Below are positions 43,447 through 45,521 of a DNA stretch of 47,594 nucleotides, piece after piece. Source of the DNA: Pseudomonadota bacterium. GTDB lineage: Bacteria > Pseudomonadota > Gammaproteobacteria > Steroidobacterales > SZUA-146. How positions within the stretch are numbered: position 1 is the stretch's first letter; the number at the start of each line of letters is the position of its first letter. Both the position numbers and the translations under genes were made by a program. Location: NCBI GenBank assembly GCA_039028935.1, contig JBCCHD010000029.1, forward strand, positions 1-47,594, written 5' to 3'. The notes under the pieces are model-generated. The model did not search any database, was not told the DNA's origin, and saw only the letters and a program-made list of their open reading frames with translations.

Positions 43447-44376
43447 ATGCGTCACCTACCGGTTGTGTTTGTGATGGGGCCGACGGCCTCAGGCAAAACA
43501 TCGCTCGCGATGGAGCTTGTGCAACGATTGGATGCCGACATCATCAGCGTTGACTCGGCGATGATCTATCGCACAATGGACATCGGGACCGCTAAGCCCA
43601 CAGCGGATGAATTGGCCCGCGCGCCACACGCGCTGATTGATCTATTGGATCCTTCGCAATCGTGGTCGGTGGGCGAATTTTGCGCCTCCGCCCAGTCGCT
43701 CATCGAACGCAGTCATCGCCAAGGGCGTGTTCCGCTGCTCACGGGTGGCACGATGATGTATTTTCGGGCGTTTGAGTCTGGGCTCAATGCGCTGCCGCAG
43801 GCCGATGCCGATACTCGCGCACAGATCAATCAACAGGCCGACACGGTCGGGTGGCCAGCCTTGCATGCCGAACTCGAGCGCCTTGATCCAGAGGCCGCAG
43901 CCCGGATCCACCCTAATGATGCACAGCGCATTCAGCGAGCGCTGGAGGTGTTTAGGGTGAGCGGTCGCCCGATCAGTGCAATACACAATGAAACGACTCA
44001 CCCACTGCCGTATCCCGTGCTCAAATTTGCGCTGTCAGTCGGTGAACGATCGACCCTGCACGAGCGGATTCATCAGCGCTTTGATCAGATGATCGAGTTG
44101 GGGTTTGTGGATGAGGTGGCGTCTCTCCACGCCCGAGGCGATCTTCACGCCGATCTGCCATCGATCCGTTGCGTGGGTTACCGACAGCTGTGGGCCTACT
44201 TGGAGGGTGACATCGGTTTGGCAGACGCGATAACGCGCGGTAAGACCGCGACGCGTCAATTGGCCAAGCGCCAGCTTACTTGGTTGCGCAGCTCGCGCGA
44301 CCTTACTACGGTCGATCCGCTGAGTCCTAGCGCTGCGCAGACCGTGGCGGAAGTTATCCAAGCCGCCGTGGGTTAA
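43447..44376 (+). CDS. miaA: tRNA dimethylallyltransferase
   Basis: Adds the isopentenyl group to A37 of tRNAs reading UNN codons. 309 residues. Seen: P-loop GPTASGKT at 11-18, SVDSAMIYRTMDIGTAKP, VPLLTGGTMMYFRAF, HPNDAQRIQRALEV and VGYRQLWAYLEG. The C-terminal FDxMIELGFVDEV region is normal. In most gammaproteobacteria hfq follows closely; here an 893-base gap intervenes. Confidence 0.97.
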   Translation: MRHLPVVFVMGPTASGKTSLAMELVQRLDADIISVDSAMIYRTMDIGTAKPTADELARAPHALIDLLDPSQSWSVGEFCASAQSLIERSHRQGRVPLLTGGTMMYFRAFESGLNALPQADADTRAQINQQADTVGWPALHAELERLDPEAAARIHPNDAQRIQRALEVFRVSGRPISAIHNETTHPLPYPVLKFALSVGERSTLHERIHQRFDQMIELGFVDEVASLHARGDLHADLPSIRCVGYRQLWAYLEGDIGLADAITRGKTATRQLAKRQLTWLRSSRDLTTVDPLSPSAAQTVAEVIQAAVG

Positions 44377-44465
44377 GCGAGACCGAGTCGGTTAATCCAA
44401 GAATACGATACCGTGATACCGCCCGCCACGGCGCCATGAACCTCGCCAGAAAATCCCCCTTACAC

Positions 44466-44833
44466 GTTCGACTCAGGCCGTGCGATGCGGACAGACGCCT
44501 CTGCCGGTTCGACACGGACCGTTCGACGCGGACAGTTCGACGTGGACAGGCACACCGTTCGACTCAGACGGTCGGGCCGGTTCGACCTGGACAGGCACGC
44601 CGTTCGTCTCGGATAGGCATGCCCGCCTGTCGTGAGGTCAGATGACACCACGTTGGACTCATGTTGGATTCACAGTGGACGGATTCACATTGGACAGTCA
44701 CTCGGTGTCGAACACGCGATGACCAGCCCGGGTCGAACAGCTTGGACAGTCACACACTCTTGTCACCAATACGCTGAGGTCGCCCGCCGGACAGTCACAT
44801 CGAAGTGCCAAGCGCTTAGCAATGGATAGTCAT
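44466..44833 (+). repeat. Degenerate tandem repeat array built on GTTCGAC and GGACAG
   Basis: Left part: units starting GTTCGAC at 44466, 44507, 44521, 44535, 44557, 44580 and (GTTCGTC) 44602. Within a unit GTTCGAC is followed by two variable bases and GGACA (or GGACC, GGATA); three units add GGCACRCC, so unit lengths are 14, 14, 22, 23, 22, 22. Right part: GGACAGTCAC at 44692, 44744 and 44789, GGATAGTCAT at 44824, and GGATTCAC, GGACTC variants at 44655-44688. All copies face the same way. Lengths are not multiples of three, so this is not a protein repeat. Origin unknown; it may be the worn end of a mobile element or a noncoding RNA. Confidence 0.75.
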
Positions 44834-45151
44834 CTCGCGAGCACCGGGAATACGCTACGTGATCTGCGGAGACTAGACCGAAGGTCTCTGAGTGCGGTCA
44901 AGTTTTAAGGTGCGGTGCTATCTGACTAAGTGGATACCCTGAACTTGAGCGCATCGGTATCGCGGTTGTCTGTACAACGTAGCGCTCGCGACTGGCGAGG
45001 CGGTCAACAACAACAAAACACGGAAGATGAATTCAAATGCGGTTCAATTGCCGTGGTTTGGCCGAAATTAAATACATTTCGTCCGATTCGATTAATGCGT
45101 CGTGGTGTGTCCAGATTTGTCCGTTATTTTGCGAAAAACACTGGTGTTGCG

Positions 45152-45161
45152 GGGCATGCCC
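45152..45161. repeat. Perfect 10-base palindrome upstream of hfq
   Basis: GGGCATGCCC, immediately followed by TATGCT (45162-45167), about 110 bases before the hfq start. TATGCT could be a -10 hexamer but has no fitting -35; the palindrome would overlap its spacer like an operator. Tentative. Confidence 0.3.
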
Positions 45162-45269
45162 TATGCTAGACTTCCAGCGTGGGGTTCATGGATGAGCTGC
45201 AACCACCGCGGACTAAAAAACCAAATTCCAATAACACGACTTATAAGAAAGCCTCCAAAGGAGAATCCC

Positions 45270-45521
45270 ATGGCAAAAGGGCAATCCCTTCAGGACCCAT
45301 TTTTGAACGCGCTTCGACGCGAAAAAATTCCGGTATCTATTTATCTGGTGAACGGCATTAAATTGCAGGGGCAAATCGACTCGTTCGATCAATTTGTTGT
45401 TTTGCTTAAAAATAGCGTAAGCCAGATGGTCTACAAACACGCCATTTCAACGGTGGTTCCGGCGCGGAATGTGCGTCTGGGTTCGGACGACGGCGACGCG
45501 GATGCGCAAAGCGGCGACTGA
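45270..45521 (+). CDS. hfq: RNA chaperone Hfq
   Basis: Hexameric Sm-like protein pairing small RNAs with messages. 83 residues. Seen: [22 protein letters not shown] (Sm1 start) and FDQFVVLLK, then the Sm2 signature [10 protein letters not shown] with the uridine-binding His. The C-terminal tail is short (about 15 residues, Asp/Gly-rich) compared with E. coli Hfq. Start ATG 45270 with AAAGGAG six bases upstream; GGAG of that site can pair with CTCC at 45253-45256 over a three-base loop. In E. coli Hfq represses its own translation through its leader, so such a hairpin could matter. Followed by hflX after 35 bases. Confidence 0.97.

Follow-up and report, generated by a model that had tools for sequence, protein, structure and literature searches.

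A degenerate repeat array beside hfq as a candidate terminal array of a RAYT-type transposase system

How repeats are spread by TnpA-REP (RAYT) enzymes is described as an unsettled question (PMC8266576). In the available part of that account, these enzymes form a 5'-P-Tyr link and leave a 3'-OH able to prime synthesis or to rejoin, both of which are options for REP spread, and the enzymes studied cut at CT sites. The available text of the 2018 survey by Quentin et al. (PMC6006769) sorts TnpA-Y1 proteins into subclasses, among them subclass 2.3, which is RAYT-like, with a median length of 325 aa, an insertion of ~55 aa between strand 3 and helix C and a long C-terminal tail; as far as that text goes, the survey identified no REP-like sequences next to members of subclasses 2.1 and 2.3. 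TIRtrons and TIRYT, described by Di Nocera and colleagues (2013, PMC3733652, available part), have terminal inverted repeats (TIRs) that often carry GGGGWSAS and that occur also as dimers and clusters. The same source describes REP clusters as reiterated in tandem together with flanking DNA of variable length.

The window analysed here is a stretch of 47,594 nucleotides, contig C29 of a 4.1 Mb genome (G000) of a pseudomonadotal bacterium in the order Steroidobacterales. The original prediction placed a degenerate array between miaA and hfq, and this array of ~370 bases is real and lies far beyond chance, as judged from 400 dinucleotide shuffles of 44466-44833 (Table 1). Exact GTTCGAC occurs there six times on the plus strand and eight times if one mismatch is allowed; the shuffles give a mean of 0.15 and a maximum of 2 exact copies. 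Exact GGACAGKCAC is found five times on the plus strand and never on the minus strand (shuffle mean 0.00, maximum 1), and TRF reports periods of 14, 22, 11 and 15 across the array. Two claims need correction. About thirteen GGA[CT]A copies had been counted, whereas exact GGACA plus GGATA come to 9; and the single orientation that had been claimed holds for the GGACAG[GT]CAC cores (5/5) but fails for GTTCGAC, because two copies sit on the opposite strand.

The junction was said to be normally tight, and comparison within the order confirms this. The gap between miaA and hfq is 893 bases in the window and about 92-371 bases in 12 other order genomes (92-159 in 10 of the 12, 180 and 371 in the others), lengths that may include up to 23 unaligned C-terminal residues of MiaA. 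The core GGACAG[GT]CAC is absent from the compared loci of these 12 genomes. Of the two sampled congeners, G001 has an assembly in which neither miaA nor hfq was found, and G002 has a junction of ~130 bases that aligns with the window only from the hfq leader onward, the leader DNA being ~74% identical. As regards hfq, the array probably sits between the two genes as a mere passenger, because the leader conserved in G002 still adjoins hfq. None of three open reading frames across the array and its right flank has a Pfam match, and a decayed gene, which the original prediction had named as a possible outcome, is unlikely since the junction is at most 371 bases long in 12 relatives.

Table 1. 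Features of the miaA-hfq junction, in window coordinates.
Feature	Position	Strand	Basis
miaA, left neighbour	43447-44376	+	PF01715 E 3.6e-88; ORF
Stretch without counterpart in the G002 junction, contains the array	44377-45131		G002 comparison
First sub-array: eight contiguous units, lengths 14, 27, 14, 14, 22, 23, 22, 23	44466-44624	+	parse and statistics
Core GGACAGGCAC	44544-44553	+	pattern count
Core GGACAGGCAC	44589-44598	+	pattern count
Second sub-array: short units, words ending ATTCACAGT / ATTCACATT	44652-44701	+	parse, TRF
Core GGACAGTCAC closing the second sub-array	44692-44701	+	pattern count
Core GGACAGTCAC	44744-44753	+	pattern count
Core GGACAGTCAC	44789-44798	+	pattern count
Decayed core GGATAGTCAT, two mismatches	44824-44833	+	pattern count
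hfq leader, conserved in congener G002, downstream of the array	45132-45269	+	DNA identity
hfq, right neighbour, frame intact	45270-45521	+	PF17209 E 4.4e-30

The conserved part of the repeats is the 10-mer GGACAG[GT]CAC (the core), with a locus-specific short word before it and a variable tail after it. In the first sub-array, every unit consists of a 9-base word of the GTTCGACNN type and a complete, cut-off or mutated GGACAGGCAC tail. The word is GTTCGACNN in six units and a mutated form in two; the tails are GGACAGGCACACC-like, and two of the eight are altered. The unit lengths follow as 9+5 = 14, 9+13 or 14 = 22 or 23, and 9+18 = 27, with the end of the last (eighth) unit set by us, and the 14- and 22-23-base periods are therefore one word followed by the same tail at either of two lengths. 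Starting at 44652, the region has other words before its GGACAGTCAC cores and is less regular than the first sub-array. The window array has neither an inverted partner nor a transposase.

When the array itself served as a DNA query, G000 yielded no second copy, and in 38 relatives there was one match, to the hfq leader only. Such a search fails to find other arrays because the 10-mer is all that they have in common. Counted against a reversed-pattern control, the core is enriched in G000 (42 vs 11), G001 (95 vs 10) and G002 (86 vs 18), and also in family f4 (35 vs 15 in G019, 46 vs 16 in G032 and 15 vs 2 in G005), while counts in most other genomes of this search are similar to or below the control. 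Close core pairs on the same strand number 4, 28 and 22 in G000, G001 and G002, with 0 for the control in each. At least 100 close pairs occur in 12 of the 196 order genomes sampled, compared with 5 for the reversed pattern.

Further arrays in G000 lie at C13:85030-85190 and C59:538-761. The layout recurs with unrelated words in G000, in both sampled congeners and in other bacteria: each array has its own word (for example GAATCGCCT, GGTGCAAGT, GGGCGTTCA or AAATTATT) and sometimes two or three, and these words precede GGACAGGCAC or a cut-off piece of it. The run of bases shared before the core averages 0.65 between arrays and 5.25 within arrays. A scan of genome contigs for three close cores returned at least 120 stretches, and the 80 loci among the matches listed span several phyla, many of them showing the word-core layout by eye; L123, L127, L131 and L141 have another layout and resemble simple coding repeats. 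The arrays of G001 and G002 are identical by eye to L180 and L125, and the congener, order-genome and scan sets overlap, because six or more loci of the 80-locus scan (L125, L137, L180; L130, L191, L192; by eye) duplicate congeners or order genomes. The search of the genome and its relatives that the original prediction proposed as a check has thus turned out positive, with further copies in G000 and, in relatives, many copies beside transposase genes.

Several side observations concern the distribution of the core. Metagenome-assembled genomes of Clostridia (L128, L151, L157, L159, L170, L177, L178) hold many regular 35-base repeats that contain GGACAGGCAC and may belong to another RAYT-like enzyme, L170 having a weak match (E 9e-8). 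In G019 and G032, the core often stands in REP-like inverted pairs ~22-31 bases apart, and despite these pairs no close RAYT of the linked subfamily was found there. On contig C62 of G000, an intact open reading frame that looks alpha/beta hydrolase-like by eye (L055:2449-3423) contains three GGACAGTCAC cores, all on the coding strand, and a frame that looks like a PLP-dependent decarboxylase by eye (L048:8199-9644) holds three core-like copies in ~150 bases on both strands. Cores also lie upstream of a gene that is zwf-like by eye, both in G000 (C62, L048:4200-4245, as an inverted pair) and in G001 (C104, L103:1225-1322), which suggests an old shared insertion or a preferred site.

What kind of enzyme accompanies these arrays? 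The partner in G000 is encoded on contig C62 (L055:1112-2065), a 317-aa protein that is the sole full-length match of the linked transposase type in this genome, so that the predicted lack of a transposase gene in the window holds for this type; a shorter query gave an additional 31-residue match on C39 (E 3.4e-4). A PF01797 search of G000 missed the gene, which was spotted by eye and then confirmed with NF047646 and PF01797. The NCBIfam model NF047646 (REP-associated tyrosine transposase) matches the protein at E 2.5e-13 with 50.1 bits, below its cut-off of 80, and PF01797 scores 25.7 bits, just above its cut-off of 23. The HUH motif and the catalytic tyrosine are present, H74, H76 and Y184 (L155 numbering) being invariant in 11 aligned proteins. 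An AlphaFold model of the homologue L155, of modest confidence (pLDDT 65.9), has as its best match 4ER8, TnpA-REP with a REP hairpin (E 8.5e-5, TM-score by query 0.34), and the ISDra2 and IS608 structures match at weaker E-values. Neither PADLOC nor a sequence search of the PDB (E up to 1) gave a match.

Across the order, core arrays track this transposase subfamily. Core pairs are present in 9 of the 10 genomes that encode a RAYT scoring at least 280 bits to the C62 protein and in 3 of the 186 others (Fisher 2e-12), a limit picked after the list had been seen; with a 150-bit limit the figures are 9/19 vs 3/177, and with any RAYT match at E 1e-3 they are 11/73 vs 1/123, as counted by hand. Within a single genus (g6, 28 of the sampled genomes), pairs occur in four of the five genomes with the RAYT subfamily and in none of the 23 without it. 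Among the pairs listed, 11 of 14 such RAYT genes have a core pair no more than 700 bp away, a distance likewise picked afterwards. The exceptions are the C62 gene itself, which has no core pair within 700 bp and a single core ~0.5 kb downstream, the gene on G002:C260, with one core nearby, and G162, which has a close RAYT and no core pairs. Conversely, pairs without a close RAYT occur in G019, G032 and G047, with weak matches in G019 and G047. Cores within 1 kb of 14 RAYT genes in the fetched loci point inward, toward the gene, in 71 of 80 cases and outward in 9, a count summed by hand over cores that are not independent within one array and excluding partial RAYT genes (L158, L183, L186 and the second and third matches in L191). 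Of the 80 listed array loci, 13 contain a RAYT homologue, some only as a fragment or weak match, and 67 have none in the stretch examined; loci not picked for arrays had none in 29, a weak control because it covers 91 kb vs 569 kb. Taken together, these arrays are very probably linked to a RAYT-type transposase.

The boundaries of the repeats were described by two lengths, s, the identity between successive word copies upstream of the core, and p, the same downstream. Perfect tandem steps were dropped from both (15 pairs in the congeners, 139 in the 80 scan loci). Word copies entered these tests only with 5 or 6 identical bases upstream of the core, so that shorter sharing cannot show. For the congeners, 19 fetched loci went into the boundary and polarity tests, which leave out the clusters G001:C18 and C41 and G002:C12, C14, C133 and C149. 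In 101 congener pairs, s was 7 in 3, 8 in 25, 9 in 23, 10 in 16 and 11 in 7, with 5 or 6 in 22; in 86 pairs from 13 RAYT-linked loci it was 8 in 5, 9 in 24, 10 in 10 and 11 in 10, with 5 to 7 in 25. In contrast to this upstream boundary the 3' boundary floats, p ranging from 0 to 28 in the congeners. Median s is 8-10 in 24 of 28 congener word families and in 17 of 29 RAYT-linked ones (11 of these at 9), vs only 32 of 81 in loci without RAYT. The congeners have an offset of 8 or 9 bases, and most other RAYT-linked loci have one of 9.

When mismatches are allowed, identity between successive complete cores in the congeners (n 50) is 0.72-0.92 at positions -1 to -8 and 0.20-0.44 beyond -9, the drop running from -8 (0.78) through -9 (0.46) to -10 (0.28); in RAYT-linked loci (n 51) it falls gradually, through 0.69, 0.55, 0.47 and 0.25 from -8 to -11. 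Cut-off words on the 5' side of the first complete core outnumber those that follow the last one on the 3' side by 11 to 0 in 10 congener arrays (5 contributing), by 23 to 7 in 26 RAYT-linked arrays and, a weak polarity, by 47 to 29 over all 96 eligible scan arrays. Two copies at L104 have an interior identical at 40/40 positions, share exactly 9 upstream bases and then differ. A conserved cleavage dinucleotide at -10/-9, the inferred cut, was not found. Because the words are unrelated between loci, the fixed offset most likely arises from something reading the core. Element copies from different places were also compared in a pool, but the outcome, dominated by coding-like repeats (L123, L127, L131, L141, L148, L174), was set aside as too noisy.

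How do these arrays and their partner compare with described systems? The C62 protein fits subclass 2.3, matched to its published description only, in its length, its HUH motif and tyrosine and its long C-terminal tail; in the L155 model, residues 79-133 form a stretch of ~55 residues between the HUH strand (71-78) and a helix (134-152), and a long tail follows the tyrosine. Unlike subclass 2.3 as described in the available text of the survey (PMC6006769), the members here are flanked by GGACAG[GT]CAC arrays. With TIRYT, as far as the available part of its description goes, the relatives share a tyrosine transposase between inverted repeats, the cores around it pointing mainly inward. As to GGGGWSAS, it is fitted by GGGGACAG, which is present in many loci, but GGACAG often follows two bases other than GG, and the cores in the window are preceded by T or C. 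The relatives differ from TIRYT in that their ends are one-directional 10-mer arrays, made of cut-off copies and of words of 8-9 bases that are specific to the locus; the solo array in the window, moreover, has no inverted copies flanking a transposase gene. As in REP, BIME and REPIN, short repeats are spread with a RAYT, but the upstream segment here is near-fixed in length. The array itself was also considered as a REP or REPIN, and neither a core on the other strand nor a fold better than that of shuffles was found. From these comparisons we file it with the RAYT/TIRYT-associated repeats, as a new variant among them. In the open-access literature, as far as its text was available, the word-core architecture was not found in print, and the papers listed for two forms of the motif bear titles from unconnected fields. 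That such a system writes repeats is a stronger claim than this classification, and we infer it with lower confidence.

On balance, we favour reading the hfq array as a terminal array that stands alone and is decaying, that belongs to a RAYT-type system (TnpA-REP-like, HUH Y1) with the core GGACAG[GT]CAC, and that grew by nicking, extension and rejoining. Support comes from the relatives, because their RAYT-subfamily genes are adjoined and pointed at by core arrays of the same architecture, and from the window, because its units obey the same rule of a 9-base word plus 5, 13, 14 or 18 bases. Instead, a RAYT element could have deposited the core, after which replication slippage without the enzyme expanded the arrays as neutral minisatellites, a course that we consider unlikely. 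Imperfect and mixed units, the perfect tandem steps that were set aside above (15 congener pairs, 139 in the 80 loci) and the weak polarity across all arrays (47 to 29) are what slippage would give, yet slippage offers no reason for a constant 8-9-base 5' boundary in unrelated words beside a floating 3' boundary, nor for cut-off units solely on the 5' side in the congeners. It is improbable, too, that the 10-mer is the binding site of a host factor and that RAYT elements prefer landing beside its clusters: pairs do lack a close RAYT in three genomes, as do 67 of 80 array loci in the stretch examined, but within one genus pairs track the RAYT subfamily (4/5 vs 0/23), and the cores form inward-pointing ends around the gene.

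The remaining two readings were those of the original prediction. A noncoding RNA beside hfq, displaying its repeated GGA motifs to a regulator, for example, would agree with the repetition of GGA on one strand, but it is very improbable, since the array folds no better than shuffles (z 0.03), its two Rfam matches both fall far below the gathering scores, no promoter-like site was found for it, and the equivalent junction of 12 relatives has no comparable stretch. Hardly any credence attaches to a Tn7/Mu/IS21-type element whose end would carry multiple transposase-binding sites. Its ~22-base repeats on the same strand are indeed present; against it, the gene found beside the arrays encodes a Y1 HUH transposase, in flanks searched for the RAYT type alone, and the words vary from locus to locus. 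The proposal of transposase-linked repeats was right in kind, the family found being a different one, and a fixed set of binding sites gives way to a conserved 10-mer after a locus-specific 8-9-base word.

For the terminal array of a RAYT-type system, we propose growth by nick, extension and rejoining, a mechanism that we hold possible at slightly under even confidence. The transposase would bind the core on single-stranded DNA, and its HUH domain would nick at a fixed point 8-9 bases 5' of the core, leaving a 3'-OH and a tyrosine-bound 5' end. The 3' end would then be extended, re-copying the 9-base word and a variable stretch of the core, and would attack the tyrosine link, so that the strand is rejoined with one unit added on the 5' side of the complete core. 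After repeated rounds, the 5' boundary would be fixed and the 3' boundary floating, and complete units would have cut-off ones on their upstream side. The same cut could carry word and core to new places, and single pairs such as the two L104 copies fit this. In G000, the gene is elsewhere, on contig C62, and the hfq array looks degenerate now.

More tentatively still, subclass 2.3-like HUH transposases might recognise a bare 10-base linear core, cut 8-9 bases upstream of it in any sequence and manufacture local minisatellites by nicking, short synthesis and rejoining. If true, this would be an enzyme that writes repeats, and its product would preserve where the strand was cut and how far each round of synthesis ran. 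The finding also proposes a DNA partner for a transposase subclass reported without one, in named organisms such as Pseudomaricurvus alcaniphilus (L155) and Marinobacter aromaticivorans (L171), some of the hosts being cultured. The arrays, with their near-fixed 5' and floating 3' ends, would serve as a molecular fossil record that makes the nick-extend-rejoin route directly testable, and they may offer an origin for degenerate intergenic minisatellites of an easily overlooked type.
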